A DNA stretch of 64,000 nucleotides from Microcoleus sp. bin38.metabat.b11b12b14.051. Its GTDB lineage: Bacteria; Cyanobacteriota; Cyanobacteriia; Cyanobacteriales; Microcoleaceae. This document shows positions 6,424 to 37,613 of the stretch, piece by piece (within the stretch, counting starts at the first letter, position 1; the number at the start of each line of letters is the position of its first letter). The notes below the pieces were generated by a model. The model did no database searches. It saw nothing but the letters and a program-made list of their open reading frames with translations, and was not told where the DNA came from. The translations under genes and the position numbers were made by a program. The stretch covers positions 1-64,000 of the forward strand of contig NZ_JAAFKD010000001.1 in assembly GCF_013299165.1 (NCBI RefSeq). Reading direction: 5' to 3'.

Positions 6424-7527
6424 ATGACAAAAATATTTGATTGCATTATTGTCGGTGCAGGCCCAGCCGGCAGCACAGCAGCTTATCATCTGGCTCTGCT
6501 GGGACGTTCTGTTGTGGTACTGGAAAAAGCGTCTTTACCCCGCAATAAACCTTGCGGTGGTGGCGTGTCTCCGGCGATCGCCCAATGGCTGGATTTTGAC
6601 CTGACACCAGCTATTTCTCTGAAATCTAACAAAGTTAGCTACACCTGGAAAATGGGCGATCCGACACAAAGTCAGGTAAGTTCGCCAATGTGGATGGTAC
6701 AGCGAGATATATTTGACGATTTTTTAATTAAACAAGCTCAAAAAACTGGTGCGGAACTTAGAGACTCAACAGAAGTTAAAGGTATTGAGTTTAAAAATTT
6801 TATTTGGGAAGTTAAAACTAACTCAGAACCCGTTTACGGCCGCTATTTGATTGCTGCTGACGGTGCCGGCGGGCCGATGACTAAGTGGTTGGGATTCAAA
6901 GAACCAAAGCTCTGTATCAGCGCCAGTTTAGAAACTCGCTCGATTAAGGGCGATTCGCTCAATTTCGATTTTGGCACTATTAAAAAAGGTTTTATCTGGT
7001 GTTTTCCCAAGGCTGACGGCTACTCTTTTAGTATTGCTGCGATGCGCGGCGACAAGCCAAAAAATCTGAAGAAAATTTTAACCGACTATGCCACTAAGTG
7101 CGGTGCTGATGTTAGTGTCAGCAACGTGCGGGAACACCCGCTTTCTCTGTGGAATGGCGATCGCCAATTGCACTCTCAAAATGCGCTGCTTGTTGGAGAA
7201 GCCGCTAGTCTCGCCGATCCCCTCACCGGTGAGGGGATTCGACCAGCCATATTTAGCGGATTTAAGGCCGCTGGGGCGATCGATCGCTCTCTCTCAGGTG
7301 CAGCCGACGCCCTAGAGCAGTACACTCAGGCGATCGCCGCCGAATGGGGAACTGATATGGTTTGGGCCGCTCGCTTGGCTGGGCCCTTCTATCAGTTTAC
7401 TGGCTCTGCTTACAGAGCAGGCGTCAAGTCACAGAGCGCTACTCAGTTGATGGGCAAGATTTTGTGCGGGGAATTGCGTTATGCCGATATTGCTAACCGC
7501 GCTCTTAAAAAGCTGATGCCGTTTTAG
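6424..7527 (+). CDS. FAD-dependent oxidoreductase, geranylgeranyl reductase family
   Basis: A 367-aa flavoprotein with an N-terminal dinucleotide-binding fold (IIVGAGPAGSTAAYHLA, residues about 8-24). Next come the family motif PRNKPCGGGVS and a C-terminal FAD segment NALLVGEAASLADPLTGEGIRPA (second GD-like motif). These match the geranylgeranyl reductase/digeranylgeranylglycerophospholipid reductase group. The chain is shorter than cyanobacterial ChlP and its N-terminus differs, so it is probably a paralogue with another isoprenoid-like or unknown substrate. ATG 6424 falls in the inverted repeat array, which ends within the first codons. Confidence 0.85.
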   Translation: MTKIFDCIIVGAGPAGSTAAYHLALLGRSVVVLEKASLPRNKPCGGGVSPAIAQWLDFDLTPAISLKSNKVSYTWKMGDPTQSQVSSPMWMVQRDIFDDFLIKQAQKTGAELRDSTEVKGIEFKNFIWEVKTNSEPVYGRYLIAADGAGGPMTKWLGFKEPKLCISASLETRSIKGDSLNFDFGTIKKGFIWCFPKADGYSFSIAAMRGDKPKNLKKILTDYATKCGADVSVSNVREHPLSLWNGDRQLHSQNALLVGEAASLADPLTGEGIRPAIFSGFKAAGAIDRSLSGAADALEQYTQAIAAEWGTDMVWAARLAGPFYQFTGSAYRAGVKSQSATQLMGKILCGELRYADIANRALKKLMPF

Positions 7528-7833: not shown

Positions 7834-8304
7834 ATGGTAATTTATTTTTATAAAGTAGAGGAGCCTTACGGCTGCTTTTCCAATTTTTCACCACACCAAA
7901 TTTGTCTGCACGGGCAAGATTGGTTAACGGTGGAACATTACTATCAAGCCCAAAAATTTGTCGGTAGCGTCGATCGCAGATTAGTGGCGGCGATTCGAGC
8001 CGTAGCAACTCCTCAGGAAGCCGCCGAATTAGGTCGCGATCCGAACCACCGGATGCGCGATGATTGGGAAGCTGTGAAAATTCCGATTATGCGTCAAGCC
8101 GTTTTAACTAAGTTTCTTGCTCATTCAGACATTCAAGCTATTCTCCTCGCCACAGGGGATCGAGTGATTGTGGAGGATTCGCCAAAGGATTACTACTGGG
8201 GCTGTGGCTGCGACGGCAGCGGTCAAAATCATTTGGGTAAAATTCTGATGAGCGTGCGGAGCGAAATTTCTCAGCGCCGGGCGGTCGATCAAAACTCACC
8301 TTAA
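7834..8304 (+). CDS. NADAR family protein (YbiA-like)
   Basis: A 156-aa protein with the hallmarks of the NADAR/YbiA (DUF1768) family: PYGCFSNFSPH near the N-terminus, LTVEHYYQAQKF, MRDDWEAVKIPIM and a C-terminal DYYWGCGCDGSGQNHLGKILM. Known members are N-glycosidases that hydrolyse damaged riboflavin-pathway intermediates; others act on ADP-ribosylated substrates. No partner gene for either role is next to it. Full length, no signal peptide, so cytosolic. The family call is firm; the substrate is not known from sequence. Confidence 0.9.
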   Translation: MVIYFYKVEEPYGCFSNFSPHQICLHGQDWLTVEHYYQAQKFVGSVDRRLVAAIRAVATPQEAAELGRDPNHRMRDDWEAVKIPIMRQAVLTKFLAHSDIQAILLATGDRVIVEDSPKDYYWGCGCDGSGQNHLGKILMSVRSEISQRRAVDQNSP

Positions 8305-8647
8305 TTATTTTCTATGAAGTTATATAAATAAATGTCAAGATAAGTTGACAATAAATAATTCTGCTTTTAATAATTTAAGATTGCGAGAAAATTATAAGAG
8401 GATTAAAATAATAATTATCATTTGGTTGAGTAGCTCAGTCTGTTAAAGGCAAGGAATACACCTTACCATCGCCGATTTTTGTTTTTTGGGGTGCTAAAGG
8501 CGAGACACCCTCGTCTCTAACGAGTGAACAACTATTAAAAGTACAGTTCGGTTGCATCTATAACTCAGGCTGATGTAGTGCGCGTCCGCTCGATCGAGCA
8601 GTAGGTAAAAAATTCTTATTATCACTCATAATTGCCAAAGGAGATTT
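8305..8647. other. Intergenic region before the phytochrome-like kinase
   Basis: An AT-rich first half is followed from about 8424 by a stretch with tRNA-like letters (TAGCTCAGTCTGTTA) that does not fold as a tRNA. A possible stem GGCGAGAC/CTCGTCTC lies near 8499-8516. A strong ribosome-binding site, AAAGGAG, lies at 8637-8643 just before ATG 8648. No gene or recognised riboswitch was seen. The promoter of the kinase gene is presumably here. Confidence 0.5.
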
Positions 8648-11647
8648 ATGCAACTCACAGAAAATACAGAACAATTAAATCATAAACTAGACAGAGAAAT
8701 TTTGGTGCGGCGGATAACAGAACGCATCCGCAAATCTCTAGAATTAGAAGAAATTTTAACCAGTACGGTAGCAGAAGTGCGCTCTTTTTTGAAAACGGAT
8801 CGCATCATGATGTACCAGTTTAGTGCCGACGGCAGTGGAGAAGTTGTTGCCGAATCAATTAATAACAACCGTCTCCCTTCCTTGAAAGGTCTGCACTTTC
8901 CAGCAGACGATATCCCCCCCCACGCCCGGGAGATGTATGTCAGTATGCGCCAGCGGACAATCGTAGATGTTAACTCCGGGACGATCGTCCTGAGCCCCCT
9001 CGATGCAGCAGACACGGGTCAACTTTTAGTACCCCAAGAAATCCACTACCGATCGCTCGATCCTTGCCACACAGCTTACTTGATGGCAATGGGAGTACAA
9101 TCTTCCTTCGTAGTGCCGATTTTGCACCGCAGGAGCGCGTCGCAAAACACCACAACAGAGAAGTGCGAAGCCCCTGCGTGCGTGACGAGATACGAGCCAG
9201 GAAACAATCAAGCAACTCACATTGACCTTTGGGGACTTTTAGTGTCTCACCACTCGACGCCCCGCAATATTTCAGCAACAGATTTAGAAGTAGTTCAGCT
9301 CGTAGCAGATCAATTGTCCAACGCCATCGGCCACTCGCTCCTGCTCGAGCAAACCCGTTGTAGGGCGGCCCGGGAAGCCACCGTCAGCCGCATAGCAGTT
9401 TTGTTGTACGGCCACGCCAACATTCAACTGCAACAAGCTTTAGAAGCCACTGTCACTGCTTTGGGCGGCAGCGGCGGCAGACTCTATCTCAATCCCCCGA
9501 AAATTAATCGTGAAAAGTTATCGGCTGCAAAGCTCGATCGCGAAGTTTCCGTAGCCCTTGCTGGGAGTGATGCTAGCTTTGAACTGTTCGTCACGGGCGA
9601 GCAACCAACACTTCCCCACTGGGAAAAAGTTAGGGCGATCGAAGCTCATCCGCTGTGGCAGGAATGGCTAACCAAAGGATGGAAAAATACCCAAGAAACT
9701 CTCAATTTCCCAATTTTAAATTCCCAATTCCCAGTTTGGATAATTACAGATTTACACAAAGAATCTCTATTTAGAGTTTTAGTTCCAGCTTTCCAATCAA
9801 CTAAAATTCGGGGTTTGCTGGTAATTCCCCTCCACTACCAACAACAAGTAGTCGGCTGTTTGACGATTTTTCGCAATGAAATTGATACCGAAAAAATGTG
9901 GGCGGGGCACTTGGACACCAGCGCTGCACAAATCCTTCCCAGGCAATCCTTTGAAGTCTGGCGAGAAATCAAAAAAGGTCAGTCCCCGGAGTGGAAGTTA
10001 GAGGAGATCGAGCAAGCTTTGGCGATCGGCAGCCAATTTTGTGCGGCAATTGGGCAGTACATTCTTTATCAAGAAGTGCAAGCCCTGAATGCCAACTTAG
10101 AGCGCCAAGTTCAAGAACGCACCGCTCAATTGCAAAAATCCTTGGACTTTGCTCGAGTATTGACGCGAGTGAGAGAGCAAATTTGCAGCACCTTGGATTT
10201 GAAAACCATACTGCAAACTATTGTGCGAGAAGTAAGAGTTTTGTTGGATACCGATCGCACGGTAATCTACCAATTTTCCACAGCGCAAGATGGCGAGGTA
10301 GTTGTGGAAGCGGTTCGCGGCGAGTGGCCGTCAATTTTAGGTATCAAATCTCCAAAAGATTGCTTTCCCTCTCGCTCAGACTGCTTTTATCGAGAAGGAC
10401 GGGTACGAGCAATTAATGATATTTATACTGATGATTTAACTCCCTGTTACCGCGAATTTTTGGAAAAATTGCAGGTGAAGGGCAGTTTAATTGTGCCGAT
10501 CGGCAAAGATACCCAATTCTGGGGGTTGCTGATTGCTCACGAGTGTTCCGGGCCGAGGGTTTGGCAAACAGCAGAACAGGAGTTGCTGCAAAATTTGACT
10601 ACTCAGGCGGCGATCGCCATTCACCAAGCAGAACTTTATCAAGAAAGTCTGGATGTCGCAGCCGCCGATCGAGTAAAAGCCGAACAGCTAGCTAAAACCG
10701 TCACCGAATTGCACAATACCCAAGCTCAACTGATTCAAACCGAAAAAATGTCAAGTCTGGGACAACTGGTAGCGGGAGTCGCCCACGAAATCAATAACCC
10801 CGTTAACTTTATCTACGGGAATTTGTCGCACGCCAGCGAATACAGCAAAGATTTGCTGTGCTTGGTGGAACTCTACCGCCAGCACTACCCCAATCCCCAC
10901 CCAGAAATTAGTGAGTGTGCCGAAGCGATAGAGATAGAATTTCTTACCGAAGATTTGCCCAAAATTTTGGGCTCCATGAAAGTAGGAGTTGAGCGCATCC
11001 GCCAGTTAGTTGTATCTTTGCGTAATTTTTCCCGGCTCGATCAAGCTGAAAAAAAAGGTGTGGATATTCACGAGGGCATCGACAGTACCCTGTTGATTTT
11101 GCAGCACCGGATCAAAGCCCAGTCGGATCGCGCCACCGTAGAAATCATCAAAGAATACGGCAATTTGCCCTTAGTAGAATGCTATGCCAGCTCGCTCAAT
11201 CAGGTATTTATGAATCTGATCAGCAATGCCGTTGACGCCCTAGAAATGGGAAAAACAGATCGAGTTGTGAATGTTAACGCCCTAGGGGTCAGTCCAGTCG
11301 CGACATATTTAAGCTCGCAAAACCTGGATGTCGAGACAGTAGATATAAATGCCAGCACCGAGTGTTTGATTCCAGATTTTCCATCTCCTTGCATTCGGAT
11401 TCGCACCGAATTAATCGAGGAAAAAAACGTAAGAATTAGTATTGCCGACAACGGTCACGGCATCCCCAAAGAGTTAATTTCTCACATATTTAATCCTTTT
11501 TTTACGACTAAACCCGTCGGTCGCGGGACGGGTTTAGGACTGTCTATTAGTTATCAAATTGTAGTTGAGAAACACCAGGGGGTACTCAAGTGTGTGTCTG
11601 TACCGGGTCAGGGTACTGAGTTCTCGATCGAAATTCCGTTGAATTAG
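8648..11647 (+). CDS. Phytochrome-like hybrid photoreceptor histidine kinase: GAF-PHY, second GAF, HisKA, HATPase
   Basis: A 999-aa cytosolic kinase. Residues 20-235 form a phytochrome-type GAF domain with the DIPxxAR motif at 88-94 and a Cys140-His141 pair in LDPCHTAYLMAMG, the place where bilin attaches. Residues 240-475 carry PHY tongue motifs (WAG 418-420, PRQSF 431-435), and no PAS precedes the GAF, so this is a Cph2-type (knotless) module. A second GAF (501-660) resembles cyanobacteriochromes, with DCF at 571-573 and Cys600-Tyr601. HisKA has His713, and a HATPase domain with DNGHG and GTGLGLSI follows. ATG 8648 has AAAGGAG upstream. A roughly 35-residue insertion interrupts GAF1 after VVPIL. 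The role is probably light sensing; bilin binding is inferred. Confidence 0.87.
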   Translation: MQLTENTEQLNHKLDREILVRRITERIRKSLELEEILTSTVAEVRSFLKTDRIMMYQFSADGSGEVVAESINNNRLPSLKGLHFPADDIPPHAREMYVSMRQRTIVDVNSGTIVLSPLDAADTGQLLVPQEIHYRSLDPCHTAYLMAMGVQSSFVVPILHRRSASQNTTTEKCEAPACVTRYEPGNNQATHIDLWGLLVSHHSTPRNISATDLEVVQLVADQLSNAIGHSLLLEQTRCRAAREATVSRIAVLLYGHANIQLQQALEATVTALGGSGGRLYLNPPKINREKLSAAKLDREVSVALAGSDASFELFVTGEQPTLPHWEKVRAIEAHPLWQEWLTKGWKNTQETLNFPILNSQFPVWIITDLHKESLFRVLVPAFQSTKIRGLLVIPLHYQQQVVGCLTIFRNEIDTEKMWAGHLDTSAAQILPRQSFEVWREIKKGQSPEWKLEEIEQALAIGSQFCAAIGQYILYQEVQALNANLERQVQERTAQLQKSLDFARVLTRVREQICSTLDLKTILQTIVREVRVLLDTDRTVIYQFSTAQDGEVVVEAVRGEWPSILGIKSPKDCFPSRSDCFYREGRVRAINDIYTDDLTPCYREFLEKLQVKGSLIVPIGKDTQFWGLLIAHECSGPRVWQTAEQELLQNLTTQAAIAIHQAELYQESLDVAAADRVKAEQLAKTVTELHNTQAQLIQTEKMSSLGQLVAGVAHEINNPVNFIYGNLSHASEYSKDLLCLVELYRQHYPNPHPEISECAEAIEIEFLTEDLPKILGSMKVGVERIRQLVVSLRNFSRLDQAEKKGVDIHEGIDSTLLILQHRIKAQSDRATVEIIKEYGNLPLVECYASSLNQVFMNLISNAVDALEMGKTDRVVNVNALGVSPVATYLSSQNLDVETVDINASTECLIPDFPSPCIRIRTELIEEKNVRISIADNGHGIPKELISHIFNPFFTTKPVGRGTGLGLSISYQIVVEKHQGVLKCVSVPGQGTEFSIEIPLN

Positions 11648-26283: not shown

Positions 26284-27249
26284 CTGAGCGATCCAGCACT
26301 TTCGGGTAACTTGGGAGGTTCACCTACAAGTTTGCTTTCCCAACTGTCGATCGGTATTTTTGTCCGCTCTGAAAAAATAGCATCATCGGCGATCGAGCTG
26401 TTGAACGGCGAACGCTATAGCTTAACGCACATCAAGTCGGTGGCGGATTTTTTGGGATTCGTCAAACACAATTATCACCTAGATTGTTTGGTTTGTGAGG
26501 TAGATGGCGATGGCGATGGGCGATCGGTTCTGAGCAAGCTGCAAGAACGATCGATATTTTTGCCTGCGGTAATTTTTTGGCCTGTAGTAGAAAATGGCGG
26601 GGTAGAAGCACAACTTTCCGAGAGTTTGGAGGCGGCGCCCAGTATCGGCGATGCAAGTCAAGAGCAAAGTTGTACTTTTTTTTATCACCCTGCGGAGGTG
26701 CAACTGTCAATCGGTAGATTGAACACCATAGGTGAAAGTATCGATCAGGCGATCGCGCAGTTTCTCAAACTTTCCACTCCTGTGCCGGTGAATGACCAAT
26801 CCGCAACAGTAGATGCGACAGCCCAATTGACTGCTCAAAGTTTGCTCCAGCTACAGCAGCGGCGGCTTGCGGAAAAATTACGGGAGCGATTAGGATACTT
26901 AGGCGTGTATTATAAAAGAAATTCCCAGATTTTTTTGCGAAATCTGTCGGGACCTGAAAAGCAAAAGTTTTTGGATCAACTCAAGTCAAGTTATCGCAAC
27001 ATCGTTTTGGATTATTTTTCTGAAGATAGTGCGGTCAACAATCAAATAGATGAATTTGTGAATTTGGCTTTTTTTGCTGATGTTCCCGTGACTCAACTTG
27101 TAGAAATTCACATGGAATTGATGGACGAATTTGCCAAACAGCTAAAATTAGAAGGGCGCAGCGAGGAAATACTGCTGGACTACCGATTGACTCTGATTGA
27201 CGCCATCGCTCATCTGTGCGAGATGTACAGGCGATCGATTCCGAAATAA
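26284..27249 (+). CDS. kaiA: Circadian clock protein KaiA
   Basis: KaiA stimulates KaiC autophosphorylation in the cyanobacterial clock. The C-terminal four-helix domain is nearly identical in wording to Synechococcus KaiA (LRERLGYLGVYYKRN, FADVPVTQLVEIHMELMDEFAKQLKLEGRSE, LIDAIAHLCEMYRRSIPK). The N-terminal part (LLSQLSIGIFVRSEKIASS) is the pseudoreceiver. No ATG or GTG is available. CTG 26284 lies 9 bases after AAAGGAG and is taken as start (321 aa). TTG 26311 has no such site, and TTG 26332, which aligns with the Synechococcus start, has GGGAGG 13 bases before it. kaiB and kaiC follow in the same direction. Confidence 0.93.
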   Translation: MSDPALSGNLGGSPTSLLSQLSIGIFVRSEKIASSAIELLNGERYSLTHIKSVADFLGFVKHNYHLDCLVCEVDGDGDGRSVLSKLQERSIFLPAVIFWPVVENGGVEAQLSESLEAAPSIGDASQEQSCTFFYHPAEVQLSIGRLNTIGESIDQAIAQFLKLSTPVPVNDQSATVDATAQLTAQSLLQLQQRRLAEKLRERLGYLGVYYKRNSQIFLRNLSGPEKQKFLDQLKSSYRNIVLDYFSEDSAVNNQIDEFVNLAFFADVPVTQLVEIHMELMDEFAKQLKLEGRSEEILLDYRLTLIDAIAHLCEMYRRSIPK

Positions 27250-27459
27250 CCCACTCAAGCTAAAAAGTAGAAGTCAAACAACAGAAATTAAGAAAAATCA
27301 GGTAGAAGGTAGAATTTAACAAACAAGAAAGCAGAAGGCATCGGGCAGGGTGATCCCCAAGCTGAAATTATTATAAAATAACAAAGAACAGCCGATTCAA
27401 CACAAATAACAACTACAACTAACATTTGACAACTAATACTCACGATTGAAAAAAGGTTC

Positions 27460-27774
27460 ATGAGTCCTCTAAAGAAAACCTACGTTCTCAAGCTGTACGT
27501 TGCGGGGAATACTCCCAACTCAGTACGAGCTTTGAAAACCCTCAAAGACATCCTCGAACAAGAATTTCAAGGAGTCTACGCCCTGAAAGTCATAGACGTT
27601 CTCAAAAATCCTCAGCTAGCAGAAGAGGACAAAATTCTAGCAACCCCAACGCTGGCGAAAATCCTGCCGCCCCCGGTGCGAAAAATTATTGGCGATTTGT
27701 CCGATCGCGAGAAAGTTCTGATAGGATTAGATTTGCTATATGAAGAACTTCGCGAAGAAGACCTCAATTCATAA
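27460..27774 (+). CDS. kaiB: Circadian clock protein KaiB
   Basis: The fold-switching 104-aa clock protein that binds phosphorylated KaiC, sequesters KaiA and signals output. The sequence follows the family throughout: [60 protein letters not shown] and [12 protein letters not shown]. The length is typical. ATG 27460 has AAAGG a few bases upstream. It sits 210 bases after kaiA and 282 before kaiC, wider spacing than in Synechococcus kaiBC. Confidence 0.97.
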
Positions 27775-28056
27775 GATAATCAGATGACAGTCAGTCGATT
27801 TTAGATTTTAGATTTTAGATTTTAGATTTTTTAGTCCACAGATGAATCTGGGAACTTGAATTCTAGTCAAAAATTTTGAGCTCTCCACGACTGCGATCGG
27901 AAAGCAAGTATCCGTTTTAGGGCAGGGGTAATTAATCACCCGTCAGCAGTCATTAGTTATTGAGCCAGAACCCAAACTAAAAGCTGGGTATAAAGACTCA
28001 TGAGCTGGGGTTAATGAGTGACAGATCAAGAATACTGAGAGTTGACAAAAATCGAC
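27775..28056. other. kaiB-kaiC intergenic region with TTTTAGA tandem repeats
   Basis: A run of TTTTAGA heptamers at about 27800-27830 is followed by mixed sequence up to kaiC. No gene is present. The 282-base length would allow a separate kaiC promoter, but none could be identified with confidence. Confidence 0.6.
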
Positions 28057-29616
28057 ATGAATGAAATTAGTCAAACGGTGCAACCAGAAGGATTGGTAAC
28101 GGCAGGCGTTGAAAAAATTCGCACGATGATCGAGGGTTTCGACGACATCAGTCACGGCGGAATGCCAGTAGGCAGAACTACCCTAGTCAGCGGCACGTCA
28201 GGAACGGGTAAAACTTTATTTGCCGTACAATTTATCTATAACGGAATCACCCATTTTGACGAACCCGGAGTGCTCGTTACTTTTGAAGAATCTCCGACAG
28301 ATATTATTAAAAATGCTTGCAGTTTTGGTTGGAATCTGGCACGGTTAATCGACGAAGGTAAGCTATTTATTTTGGACGCTTCCCCCGACCCAGAAGGTCA
28401 GGATATTGTGGGAAACTTCGATCTATCTGCTTTAATTGAGCGCATTCAGTACGCCATTCGCAAATACAAAGCCAAGCGCGTTTCTATCGATTCAGTGACA
28501 GCCGTATTTCAACAGTACGAAGCTGCATCTGTGGTGCGCCGAGAAATCTTTCGCTTAGTTGCGCGCCTCAAACAAGTAGGTGCAACTACGGTTATGACTA
28601 CCGAACGGGTTGAAGAATACGGCCCGGTGGCGCGGTTTGGAGTGGAAGAGTTTGTGTCGGATAATGTTGTGATTGTTCGCAACGTTTTAGAAGGCGAACG
28701 CCGCCGCCGCACCATCGAAATTTTGAAGTTGCGCGGTACAACTCACATGAAAGGTGAATATCCTTTTACCATGACCAATGATGGCATTAATATTTTCCCG
28801 TTGGGGGCGATGCGATTAACTCAAAAGTCTTCTAACGTGCGGGTTTCTTCCGGCGATAAAACTCTCGACGAGATGTGCGGCGGCGGTTTCTTTAAAGACT
28901 CGATTATTTTGGCTACCGGCGCGACGGGAACCGGCAAAACCCTATTGGTGAGCAAGTTTTTGCAGAATGCTTGTATGAACGGCAATCGGGCCCTACTTTT
29001 TGCCTACGAAGAGTCGCGGGCTCAGTTGTTCCGCAATGCCTATTCTTGGGGCATTGATTTTGAGGAAATGGAACACAAAGGACTGCTGAAACTGCTGTGT
29101 ACTTACCCGGAATCTGCGGGTTTGGAAGACCATTTGCAGACGATTAAATCAGAAATTGCTGAGTTCAAACCTTCTCGAATAGCGATCGACTCGCTGTCGG
29201 CTTTAGCTAGGGGTGTCAGCAATAATGCTTTCAGGCAATTTGTGATTGGGGTAACAGGTTTTGCGAAGCAGGAAGAAATCACCGGCTTTTTCACGAATAC
29301 CAGCGACCAGTTTATGGGTTCTCATTCGATTACAGACTCTCATATTTCTACGATTACTGATACGATTATCATGCTTCAGTATGTAGAGATTCGAGGCGAA
29401 ATGTCGCGGGCAATTAATGTGTTTAAGATGCGCGGTTCGTGGCACGACAAAGGGATTCGAGAATACACGATTACTGAAAGAGGCCCGCAAATTAAAGATT
29501 CGTTCCGGGGTTACGAACGGGTGATCAGCGGTTCTCCTACTCGGATTTCGGTTAATGAGAAGAGTGAGTTATCGCGGATTCTCCAGGGCGTCCAAGGTCA
29601 AGACGATGATATGTGA
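28057..29616 (+). CDS. kaiC: Circadian clock ATPase/autokinase KaiC
   Basis: The central clock protein: a hexameric double RecA-like ATPase that phosphorylates and dephosphorylates itself over about 24 h. With ATG 28057 it is 519 aa, the Synechococcus length, and every key residue falls on the same number. CI Walker A has Lys52/Thr53 with catalytic Glu77/Glu78. CII Walker A has Lys294/Thr295 with Glu318/Glu319. The phosphosites are Ser431 and Thr432 in SITDSHISTITD. A TTG at 28042 in frame is a less likely start. A strong terminator follows, then a convergent tRNA gene. Confidence 0.98.
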   Translation: MNEISQTVQPEGLVTAGVEKIRTMIEGFDDISHGGMPVGRTTLVSGTSGTGKTLFAVQFIYNGITHFDEPGVLVTFEESPTDIIKNACSFGWNLARLIDEGKLFILDASPDPEGQDIVGNFDLSALIERIQYAIRKYKAKRVSIDSVTAVFQQYEAASVVRREIFRLVARLKQVGATTVMTTERVEEYGPVARFGVEEFVSDNVVIVRNVLEGERRRRTIEILKLRGTTHMKGEYPFTMTNDGINIFPLGAMRLTQKSSNVRVSSGDKTLDEMCGGGFFKDSIILATGATGTGKTLLVSKFLQNACMNGNRALLFAYEESRAQLFRNAYSWGIDFEEMEHKGLLKLLCTYPESAGLEDHLQTIKSEIAEFKPSRIAIDSLSALARGVSNNAFRQFVIGVTGFAKQEEITGFFTNTSDQFMGSHSITDSHISTITDTIIMLQYVEIRGEMSRAINVFKMRGSWHDKGIREYTITERGPQIKDSFRGYERVISGSPTRISVNEKSELSRILQGVQGQDDDM

Positions 29617-34614: not shown

Positions 34615-35010
34615 ATGTCTAAACCAGCAATTTTGTGTGTTGACGATGAAGTAGCGGTGTTGGAAAGTCTGGAAATTGAACTGCAACAAGCCTTTCACGG
34701 TAAATATCTTTGCGAATTTGCTGAAAGTGCTGCTGAAGCACTGGAAATTATTGAAGAGTTCTGTGAAGATGAGGTTGACATTCTAGTGATTGTTTCTGAT
34801 TGGTTGATGCCCGGGATGAAAGGAGATGAGTTGCTGATTGTAATTCATAAAAAATATCCGCAAATTGTGACAGTGATGCTGACGGGTCAAGCAGACAAGG
34901 AAGCCATCAAACGGACGAAAATGCACGCTAATCTTCATGCTTTTATACAAAAGCCTTGGCAAAATAAAGAATTAATTGAAGCAATCAAGTCTGGTCTAGC
35001 AAAGTTATGA
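34615..35010 (+). CDS. Single-domain response regulator
   Basis: A 131-aa stand-alone receiver. The acidic pocket is VDDE at 9-12, the phosphoacceptor is Asp62 (VSDWLMPGMKGDE), and the MLTGQAD switch threonine and QKPW lysine are in place. It has no output domain. A strong AAAGGAGG precedes the ATG. Its stop overlaps the start of the cyclase gene (ATGA), and the two receivers resemble each other (both ILCVDDE/IICVDDE, DELL, MLTGQAD, KPWQ). They probably arose by duplication and act in the same pathway. Confidence 0.93.
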   Translation: MSKPAILCVDDEVAVLESLEIELQQAFHGKYLCEFAESAAEALEIIEEFCEDEVDILVIVSDWLMPGMKGDELLIVIHKKYPQIVTVMLTGQADKEAIKRTKMHANLHAFIQKPWQNKELIEAIKSGLAKL

Positions 35011-37613
35011 AAAAACCCGTCATTATTTGTGTCGATGATGAGCAGATTATACTCGATAGTCTGGAAATTGACTTACTAAAAGCCTTTGAAGATAAATATT
35101 TAATTGAAACTGCCCAAAGCGGCGAGGAAGCTTTAGAGTTGCTGTCTGAACTTTTAGCAGAACAGTATGAAGTTCCTTTGGTTATTTCCGATCATATTAT
35201 GCCAAATATGAAAGGAGATGAACTTTTGAGAAGCGTTCATGCTATATCGCCTAAATCTCTCAAAATTATGCTGACTGGTCAGGCTGATTTAGAGGCGGTA
35301 GCCAATGCTATTAACTATGCTAAATTGTACCGATACATACCTAAGCCTTGGCAACCTGAGGATTTAAAATTAACTGTTACTGAGGCCATATACAGATATT
35401 TTCAAGACAAACAGTTAGCTGAAAAACAAATTGAGCTTCAGGAGATGAATCAGGAGTTAGCAAAATTAAGTCGCAAGCAGGCGATGCTGATTGCCAAACT
35501 TCACGAGAACGAAAGTCGGCTGACGCAATACCTGGAAGCTATGCCGTTGGGTGTGTGCGTGCTTGATGCGAATGGTCAATCTTTTTATGCAAATCAAAAG
35601 GCACGGGAGGTATTTGGGAAAGGCAATGTGCCACATATTAATTCGGAGCAGAAAGCAGCAATTTATCAATTCTATAAAGCGGGAACTAATGAGAGATGCC
35701 CTGTGGAAGAATTGCCAATTATGCAGGCGCTCCGGGGCGAAAGTGTGCGGACTGAGGGTGTAGAAATTCGGACTGGTAATAAGGTGATTCCGGTGGAGAG
35801 TTGGGCGACTCCTATTTATGATTCTCTCGGGGATATTTCCTACGGGATTATTGCTTTTACTGATATTACGGAACGCAAGCAAGCTGAAGCAGCTCTGATG
35901 CAAGCTGAGGAGAAGTATCGCCGGATATTTGAAAATGCTCTTGAAGGTATTTTTCAGACTAAACCTGACGGCACGTTAATTAGTGCTAATCCGGCTCTGG
36001 CTCAAATCTACGGCTATGATTCTCCTGAAGAATTGATGGCTAGTGTTAACGATATGGATCGGCAATTATACGTGCAACCACACCGCCGTCAAGAGTTTTT
36101 CGCGCTGATGAAAAAGTACGGTACTGTGTCTGAGTTTGAGTCGGAAGTTTACCGCCGAGATGGCAGTATTATCTGGATTTCTGAGGATGCGCGTGCTGTT
36201 TGCGATGCTAGGGGTGAGCTGCTTTACTATCAGGGTTTTGCTGAGGATATTACTTTGCGCAGACTGGTAGATGTGGAACGGCTGAAGTTTACGAATGATT
36301 TGGAAAAAGCTTTGGTTGCTGAAGAAAAGTTAAATGAAGCGCTGTTGGAAAGCGAAAATCGCTTGACTCAATTGCTGGAAGCGGTGCCTGTGGGTATATT
36401 TGTAGTAGATAGTATGGCGAAACCTTTCTACATTAATTCTTGGGCCGAGAAAATACTTGGCAAAGGGTTAGTTTCTGAGGTTGTTTCTAACGATTTGCCG
36501 GAAATTTATCAAACTTACTACGCTGGGACTAATGAGCTTTATCCGGGGGAAATGCAACCGATCGCGCGGGCGCTGCGGGGAGAAGTGGTGCACGCTGATG
36601 ATGCGGAAATTCACCGCCCGGAAAGGATTGTGCCGATCGAGGTTTGGGCGACTCCCATCTACGACGAACGGAAAAATATTGTTTACGCGATCGCCGCTTT
36701 TCAAGACATCACAAAGCGTCTAGAGCTAGAAAACGACCGCCGCCTATTCACAAACGAGCTGGAAAAAGCTTTAGTGGCGGAAGAAAAATTAACTGATGCT
36801 TACGGGCGGTTTGTGCCGCATGAATTTCTGCACTTTCTGGGATATGAAAGTATTCTGGAGGTAAAATTAGGCGATCAGGTACAGAAAGAAATGTCGGTGC
36901 TATTTTCAGATATTCGCGATTTTACGGCTCTTTCTGAAACTATGACTCCGGCACAAAATTTTCAATTTATTAATTCTTATTTGTCGCGGATGGAACCGGC
37001 AATTACTGAGAATTTTGGGTTTATTGATAAATACATTGGCGATGCGATTATGGCGCTGTTTAACGGCAGTGCGGACGATGCTGTGAAAGCGGGAATTGCG
37101 ATGCTAGAACAGCTTAACGACTATAATATTAGTCGCACTAAACCCGATCGCCCGCCGCTGCAAATTGGCATTGGCATCAATACGGGTTCTTTGATGTTAG
37201 GCACCGTTGGTGGCCAAAGTCGCATGGATAGTACGGTGATTAGCGACTCGGTAAATTTAGCCTCTCGGGTGGAAAATTTGACGAAAGAGTATGGAGTTTC
37301 GATGTTAATTACTCACCATACTTTTATACAGTTGAACGATGTTTATGATTTTAGGTTGATCGATCGCGTCACAGTTAAAGGCAAATCGCGGATGGTAACG
37401 GTTTATGAAGTATTTGCAGCCGATCCGCCCGAGTTGCGACAAAAAAAGTTAGAGACTAAGACAATGTTTGAGCAAGCTTTGGTATTCTACAATAGTGACA
37501 GGCTTGTCGAAGCTACAAGATTGTTTTCGACGTGCCTGCAAATCAACCCTGGGGATAAGGTAGCTCAAATTTATATGCAGCGGTGCGTGAAACGGGCGAT
37601 CGCTCCTACATAA
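35007..37613 (+). CDS. Response regulator-type class III adenylate/guanylate cyclase with PAS domains
   Basis: An 868-aa protein. A receiver with Asp62 (ISDHIMPNMKG) is followed by a coiled coil, three PAS domains (about 170-292, 300-425, 450-580) with linking helices, and a class III nucleotide cyclase domain (about 630-790). The two metal-binding aspartates are Asp635 (LFSDIRDF) and Asp679 (IDKYIGDAIMALF), and the SRMDSTVISDSVNLASR segment is intact. It likely makes cAMP in response to phosphorylation by the kinases upstream. It ends with a TPR-like tail. The start overlaps the preceding regulator gene by 4 bases. Confidence 0.92.
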   Translation: MKKPVIICVDDEQIILDSLEIDLLKAFEDKYLIETAQSGEEALELLSELLAEQYEVPLVISDHIMPNMKGDELLRSVHAISPKSLKIMLTGQADLEAVANAINYAKLYRYIPKPWQPEDLKLTVTEAIYRYFQDKQLAEKQIELQEMNQELAKLSRKQAMLIAKLHENESRLTQYLEAMPLGVCVLDANGQSFYANQKAREVFGKGNVPHINSEQKAAIYQFYKAGTNERCPVEELPIMQALRGESVRTEGVEIRTGNKVIPVESWATPIYDSLGDISYGIIAFTDITERKQAEAALMQAEEKYRRIFENALEGIFQTKPDGTLISANPALAQIYGYDSPEELMASVNDMDRQLYVQPHRRQEFFALMKKYGTVSEFESEVYRRDGSIIWISEDARAVCDARGELLYYQGFAEDITLRRLVDVERLKFTNDLEKALVAEEKLNEALLESENRLTQLLEAVPVGIFVVDSMAKPFYINSWAEKILGKGLVSEVVSNDLPEIYQTYYAGTNELYPGEMQPIARALRGEVVHADDAEIHRPERIVPIEVWATPIYDERKNIVYAIAAFQDITKRLELENDRRLFTNELEKALVAEEKLTDAYGRFVPHEFLHFLGYESILEVKLGDQVQKEMSVLFSDIRDFTALSETMTPAQNFQFINSYLSRMEPAITENFGFIDKYIGDAIMALFNGSADDAVKAGIAMLEQLNDYNISRTKPDRPPLQIGIGINTGSLMLGTVGGQSRMDSTVISDSVNLASRVENLTKEYGVSMLITHHTFIQLNDVYDFRLIDRVTVKGKSRMVTVYEVFAADPPELRQKKLETKTMFEQALVFYNSDRLVEATRLFSTCLQINPGDKVAQIYMQRCVKRAIAPT

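Follow-up and report, generated by a model that had tools for sequence, protein, structure and literature searches.

The window considered here is the whole stretch of DNA that was analysed, namely 64,000 nucleotides from the start of contig NZ_JAAFKD010000001.1 of Microcoleus sp. bin38.metabat.b11b12b14.051 (assembly GCF_013299165.1). Positions 8648-11647 of its forward strand form one open reading frame of 999 amino acids with no internal stops, and the start region, AGGAGATTTATG, is identical across all six aligned sequences. The gene and its upstream neighbourhood comprise the following features.

7834..8304, + strand: NADAR protein, the upstream neighbour (PF08719, 144.5 bits; cut-off 35.1)
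8305..8647, + strand: gap of 343 bases between the NADAR and photoreceptor genes, with a promoter-like match at 8381-8409
8648..11647, + strand: whole gene, read from its translation and Pfam as knotless phytochrome, cyanobacteriochrome-type GAF and histidine kinase
8690..9352, + strand: GAF1, about residues 15-235, a phytochrome-type bilin domain with R22-I23-T24, D88-I89-P90, Cys140-His141 and His201
9134..9217, + strand: hairpin extension of GAF1, residues 163-190, with Cys173-x4-Cys178
9353..10117, + strand: PHY domain, about residues 236-490 (Pfam PHY at 373-468), with WAG at 418-420, PRQSF at 431-435 and WRE at 438-440
10154..10651, + strand: GAF2, about residues 503-668, of cyanobacteriochrome type, with K570-D571-Cys572-F573, Cys579 and the canonical Cys600-Tyr601
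10715..11644, + strand: histidine kinase, about residues 690-999, with His713 in HisKA and D934-x-G-x-G in HATPase_c

Domain order and conservation

GAF, PHY, HisKA and HATPase_c each score above their Pfam cut-offs, with GAF reaching 139.8 bits in total over three stretches, and the kinase output, consisting of a HisKA domain with a phosphorylatable His and a HATPase_c domain, is that of a two-component histidine kinase, as the original prediction had it. The PHY match, which that prediction had sought at residues 240-475, scores 42.4 bits (cut-off 27) and covers profile positions 78-178 of 183; therefore, the N-terminal half of the PHY domain is divergent. No PAS domain appears among the Pfam families at E≤1 and GAF1 already starts near residue 15, which rules out a canonical PAS-GAF-PHY phytochrome. 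The absence of PAS before a bilin GAF with Cys140 and DIP, followed by a PHY domain with the WAG, PRQSF and WRE tongue motifs, is the arrangement of knotless (Group II, Cph2-type) phytochromes. DIPxxAR (88-94), Cys140-His141, WAG and PRQSF all lie where the prediction had placed them, and its reading of a knotless phytochrome with a cyanobacteriochrome-type GAF on a histidine kinase, possibly sensing two colours, agrees with the sequence. A second GAF domain is likewise present, but this stretch holds three cysteines (572, 579 and 600) rather than the two candidates proposed. In our own reading of the letters, R22-I-T would correspond to the RIT motif described in PMC11264168. Among 25 of 71 NCBIfam families listed, none scores above its own cut-off, and hence none names the protein.

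The reading frame is more than a chance one, because its GAF1-PHY half occurs in 26 of 27 genomes of the same genus and because dN/dS for the whole gene is 0.19-0.28 in five comparisons with relatives, of which that with L016 is near saturation (dS 1.33). Residues His713, Asp934, Gly936 and Gly938 are present in all 41 aligned proteins, and Cys140 and the tongue residue Trp438 in 40 of the 41 each. The hairpin insert of GAF1 (163-190) is faster-evolving (dN/dS 0.38-1.62 in five relatives), and its C-x4-C pair is kept in seven of the eight closest rows (best 80 of 571 relatives), the exception being L011; this pair (window 9134-9217) could conceivably form a disulfide or serve as a redox or metal site. 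The same genome holds six other PHY matches, four of them near end-to-end and two late-starting (from profile positions 89 and 96), both of which adjoin GAF1-like stretches.

Against PDB sequences, the GAF-PHY part matches SyB-Cph1 (8w26, 1.2e-65), the first GAF domain of All2699 (All2699g1; 6oza, 8.3e-58) and Cph2 (4bwi, 3.1e-49). The fold of an AlphaFold2 model (mean pLDDT 74.0 and pTM 0.45, good for domain folds and not for their arrangement) is nearest to the GAF-PHY part of SyB-Cph1 (8w26, TM-score 0.86 by target length) and then to Cph2 (4bwi), and its GAF1 reaches TM-scores of 0.89-0.92 by target against All2699g1 (6oza and 6ozb).

The second GAF domain and its relatives

The relatives compared are the best 80 of 571, and their alignment holds 41 rows, that is, the window protein and 40 open reading frames. 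At least 850 query residues were covered by 75 open reading frames, of which those longer than 1070 amino acids were left out, except for L011 and L085, which were added; the second open reading frame of L018, L064_923 and L088_1019 were also left out. All2699 is represented by L035 from Nostoc parmelioides, the GAF1 of which is 95.9% identical to the 6oza segment.

In the GAF1-PHY tree of these 41 rows (best 80 of 571 relatives), 13 All2699-type proteins are parted from 28 proteins of the window group with support of 100/99. Across the same best 80 of 571, the window protein is 46-58% identical to the 13 All2699-type rows in GAF1, 37-48% in PHY and 62-66% in the kinase, and only 27-34% in GAF2; in contrast, GAF2 is 49-82% identical to that of 26 of the 27 other members of its own group, with L040 at 23%. 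The branch separating the groups measures about 0.24 for GAF1-PHY; for GAF2 it is about four times longer, with a length of at least 0.95. The GAF2 tree splits into 27 and 14 rows because L040, which sits on long branches, changes side. In the kinase-domain tree the two groups are not recovered, as 11 window-group rows stand apart and the rest are joined with the All2699-type rows (93/55, weak). This last result, the identical domain order and an overall identity of 47-52% to the 13 rows of All2699 type (best 80 of 571 relatives) would suit an ordinary orthologue of All2699 whose second sensor is red/orange. Such an orthologue is nevertheless highly improbable, and we take it as ruled out by the GAF1-PHY and GAF2 trees and by GAF2 lagging so far behind the kinase in identity; in addition, most All2699-type GAF domains go with AnPixJ and Slr1393 and bear a W-N-D type motif, and the window GAF2 does neither.

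A PDB-anchored tree was built from 21 of the 41 GAF2 rows, 19 GAF domains of at least 140 amino acids from the same genome and seven PDB segments, with L115, L116 and TePixJ left out and with 8k9o labelled as RcaE because its sequence matches 7ckv. Six of the eight All2699-side GAF domains, L040 included, lie beside AnPixJ (3w2z), 6bhn and Slr1393 (5dfx), and beside this set also stand L024 and L038, which are All2699-type by GAF1-PHY and carry a true D-H-C-F GAF. The window GAF2 belongs to the other half of the tree (98/97), together with RcaE, PPHK and several GAF domains of its own genome. Membership of the RcaE branch itself was ruled out, since GAF2 and RcaE have only the wider half in common, the partner of RcaE being a different GAF of the same genome (99/95). 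From these trees and identities, the second colour sensor has probably been exchanged, and repeated exchange within the family would explain them most simply; GAF2 alone may instead have diverged faster. Two further objects in the genome may be mentioned here. The open reading frame L110 (G000:C12:5639-6676) is a GAF with P-D-E-C-F and Cys-His, possibly of a DXCF ancestor type, and forms the next outward branch to the window GAF2 group (94/79), on a long branch. L112 (G000:C8:162900-168400) is a second knotless-phytochrome kinase relative, a broken gene or one affected by assembly errors; besides GAF1 and PHY it has two GAFs of the D-x-C-F kind, one of which is divided between frames, and a GAF with W-E-N-T-Y, distributed over several frames.

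Of the three cysteines in GAF2, Cys572 occupies the DXCF position and Cys600 the canonical one, and the spacing between these positions is 28 in all 41 aligned rows. Within the window group (28 proteins; best 80 of 571 relatives), Cys600 is found in 27, Cys572 in 26 and both in 26, L022 having lost both and L040 being without Cys572. Two residues ahead of the second Cys, Asp occurs in 13/13 All2699-type proteins and in 2/28 of the window group (L064 and L085), the window protein having Lys570, and 17 of the 28 carry Glu or Asp at position 571 (both counts from the best 80 of 571). Since RcaE has a Glu there in the alignment as well, the acidic residue may have shifted by one place relative to the DXCF Asp. 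Asp variants of two insert-Cys cyanobacteriochromes photoconvert less efficiently (PMC5240096), which speaks against a Cys572 adduct. Residue 601 is His in 25 members, Gln in two and Tyr in one, so that Cys-Tyr is peculiar to the window protein among the 28 (best 80 of 571).

A structural GAF that has given up bilin binding, with light sensed by the red/far-red part alone, would be in line with this Tyr601 in place of the usual His and with L022, which shows that loss of both cysteines does occur in the group. However, miRFP670nano is a bilin protein and likewise has Cys-Tyr, Cys600 is nearly invariant, GAF2 identity within the group is high save for L040, and dN/dS of GAF2 is low (0.20-0.41 in five comparisons), indicating constraint; we therefore regard this possibility as improbable. 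Less easily dismissed, yet still unlikely, is the same two-sensor kinase with GAF2 working on Cys600 only, in which Cys572 would be a free thiol and the photocycle a single-Cys one (red/green, green/red or similar). The DXCF Asp is missing in 26/28, the best solved matches of GAF2 (PPHK, RcaE and miRFP670nano) have no Cys at the 572 position, and GAF2 shares its half of the tree with RcaE and PPHK. Against this, Cys572 is kept across proteins from several families and, in L022, is lost jointly with Cys600.

Neighbourhood and distribution of the gene

Of the 59 genomes of the family, 30 carry the GAF1-PHY half at E≤1e-90; within the genus these are 26 of 27, counting the source genome, and outside it 4 of 32. 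In the one genus exception, G030, only a remnant is present (L119, G030:C116:108000-116500), which matches residues 919-999, the last 81 codons, with 86% identity and sits between the NADAR and pentapeptide genes; the FAD-binding gene at window 6424-7527 has no match in this stretch. This natural near-deletion suggests that loss of the gene is tolerated.

The NADAR open reading frame also matches the NCBIfam family TIGR02464, riboflavin biosynthesis intermediates N-glycosidase, with 167.6 bits (cut-off 73.7). Of 27 window-group loci, 22 have a NADAR match on the same strand, 226-825 bases upstream of the gene (L017, L018, L019, L040 and L064 being without it), and the All2699-type loci have it in 0/13 (best 80 of 571 relatives); among 40 further loci of the same best 80 of 571, it is upstream in L047 and L048. 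In L020, L033 and L043, NADAR alone, out of ten window neighbours compared, turns up close to the gene, with L033 and L043 having one short flank each. Counted by genome, NADAR is directly upstream in 26 of the 30 that have the gene, and in 24 of 26 within the genus, where contigs of the two other cases, G038 and G054, stop 449 and 558 bases away from the gene start; G021 and G018 have the gene and lack the neighbour. Two NADAR genes occur in 23 of 27 genus genomes (two pieces in G057 counted as one), and therefore one of them is not linked to the photoreceptor gene. As G030 keeps NADAR without the kinase, the tie between the two is not absolute.

The promoter-like match at 8381-8409, a consensus match only, lies in a block partly common to six aligned sequences. 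Such a block between the genes would allow separate transcripts, and we therefore do not claim an operon. A structured RNA in this gap was ruled out, the one Rfam match, SNORD72, scoring 23.3 bits where the cut-off is 43. No response regulator gene adjoins the kinase, which is flanked by the NADAR gene and by one for a pentapeptide-repeat protein; this is common for such kinases and is no bar to membership.

Among the neighbours compared are genes that we take to be pyrH, frr, MsrB, CsoR, DegP and GGR. About 15 kb from the photoreceptor gene lies a circadian clock cluster (26311-29616) with KaiA and KaiC by Pfam and, between them, an open reading frame of 104 amino acids that is KaiB-like and presumably KaiB. 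A response regulator-PAS-nucleotide cyclase protein is encoded at 35007-37613, where several sensor kinases also lie.

The roles proposed for NADAR proteins include removal of riboflavin intermediates, motility and removal of guanine ADP-ribose (PMC11125620). One might imagine a Microcoleus- and Nostoc-type group of kinases in which the second sensor was exchanged, the second Cys kept and the motif Asp dropped (P-x-x-C-F), and which is functionally tied to the upstream NADAR; this is a tentative and rather doubtful proposal. If it were true, red/far-red and blue light would jointly affect the clean-up of riboflavin intermediates or the removal of guanine ADP-ribose. A literature listing for NADAR with phytochrome gave nothing relevant, only an unrelated editorial, and the passages available from the All2699 literature name no target for that protein. 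The NADAR neighbour might thus be a first lead to the control target of an orphan photoreceptor kinase.

Proposed mechanism and comparison with known systems

The reading we favour, with a probability of about 0.6, is that a red/far-red sensor and a second-Cys sensor for shorter wavelengths are combined on one orphan histidine kinase. The protein, probably a dimer, would be a sensor histidine kinase responding to two bands of light. Phycocyanobilin (PCB) would be bound at Cys140 of GAF1, with the PHY tongue placed over the pocket, and GAF1-PHY would switch between red- and far-red-absorbing forms, as the corresponding unit of All2699 does. In GAF2, a bilin would be attached at Cys600 and Cys572 would form a photolabile second thioether to its C10, thereby shortening the conjugation and moving one state to the blue or violet, as in TePixJ; for second-Cys GAF domains other than the blue/green TePixJ, the colours are general background. 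The joint retention of Cys572 and Cys600 and their TePixJ-like spacing speak for this role of Cys572, whereas Lys570 in place of the DXCF Asp, Cys-Tyr where most of the group have Cys-His, and the lack of a Cys at the 572 position in PPHK, RcaE and miRFP670nano speak against it. Because both modules lead via helices into the kinase, autophosphorylation of His713 would report the combined light bands, and the combination of red/far-red with shorter wavelengths would be passed to a putative unlinked response regulator, with either sign of the kinase response conceivable. In the genome, heme oxygenase is matched once (296.7 bits) and bilin reductase three times strongly (254.6-275 bits) and once weakly (31.5 bits, with two stops); therefore, a supply of PCB is plausible. 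This group allows one to ask how a dual-sensor kinase swaps its second colour with the first sensor and the output kept, and whether the DXCF Asp is needed for second-Cys photochemistry.

The closest known system is All2699 of Nostoc sp. PCC 7120, in which three GAF domains are combined with a histidine kinase and PCB is carried on GAF1 and GAF3 (PMC6696110). Its GAF1 absorbs at 638/685 nm, with a photoproduct at 705 nm when the second domain is present; this second domain is PHY-like, with the tongue motifs W(G/A)G, PRXSF and WX(D/E), and GAF3 absorbs at 645/595 nm (PMC6696110). Its GAF1-PHY unit has been termed a knotless phytochrome (PMC12907550), and SyB-Cph1 is a PAS-less phytochrome (PMC11264168). 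Cph2 of Synechocystis PCC 6803 joins an unknotted red/far-red module and a separate blue/green cyanobacteriochrome in one protein with c-di-GMP output (PMC5812497), a likeness to the window protein. From these precedents, both a knotless phytochrome on a kinase and an added bilin GAF were already known. Consequently, the original prediction's view of a less common build does not hold, as All2699 has the same order with PCB on both sensor GAFs; SyB-Cph1 from Synechococcus JA-2-3B'a, which, compared over its GAF-PHY part only, likewise has GAF-PHY without PAS, with a tongue, and the PDB chain of which is named a histidine kinase, undercuts it further.

The window protein shares with All2699 the order GAF1, PHY (the PHY-like GAF2 of All2699), a further GAF (its GAF3) and histidine kinase, and two chromophore domains on one kinase (those of the window protein being predicted), and its GAF1 is 59% identical over 146 amino acids to the 6oza segment. 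The two differ in that the third GAF of All2699, judged via the stand-in L035, belongs to the red/green type, has W-N-D-T-Y and lacks a second Cys, whereas the window GAF2 has Cys572 with no Asp two residues before it, lacks WxDxxL, is 30% identical to the L035 GAF and is placed in the opposite half of the tree. Furthermore, the GAF1 and PHY insertions are longer in the window protein, and its NADAR neighbour has no counterpart at the All2699-type loci among the best 80 of 571 relatives. It is therefore a real, conserved two-sensor kinase of All2699 build that forms a distinct group, its sensing roles being predicted. Judged from sequence, the fusion itself is known and GAF2 is what differs; a GAF2 lineage unlike that of All2699, with a conserved second Cys lacking the usual Asp, goes beyond what the original prediction had seen. 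In the titles and abstract openings of the open-licence literature searched, we found no description of a GAF-PHY unit with a second-Cys cyanobacteriochrome on a kinase.

For the second sensor, the nearest model is the DXCF protein TePixJ, a blue/green photoreceptor that has its second Cys (C494) 28 residues before the canonical one (C522), as in the window GAF2, and D492 two residues before C494; the bond between C494 and bilin C10 is broken on photoconversion (PMC6955287). The window GAF2 shares the canonical Cys and a second Cys at the DXCF position, and differs from the DXCF cyanobacteriochromes in having Lys570 at the position of the Asp, which is replaced in nearly all of its group.
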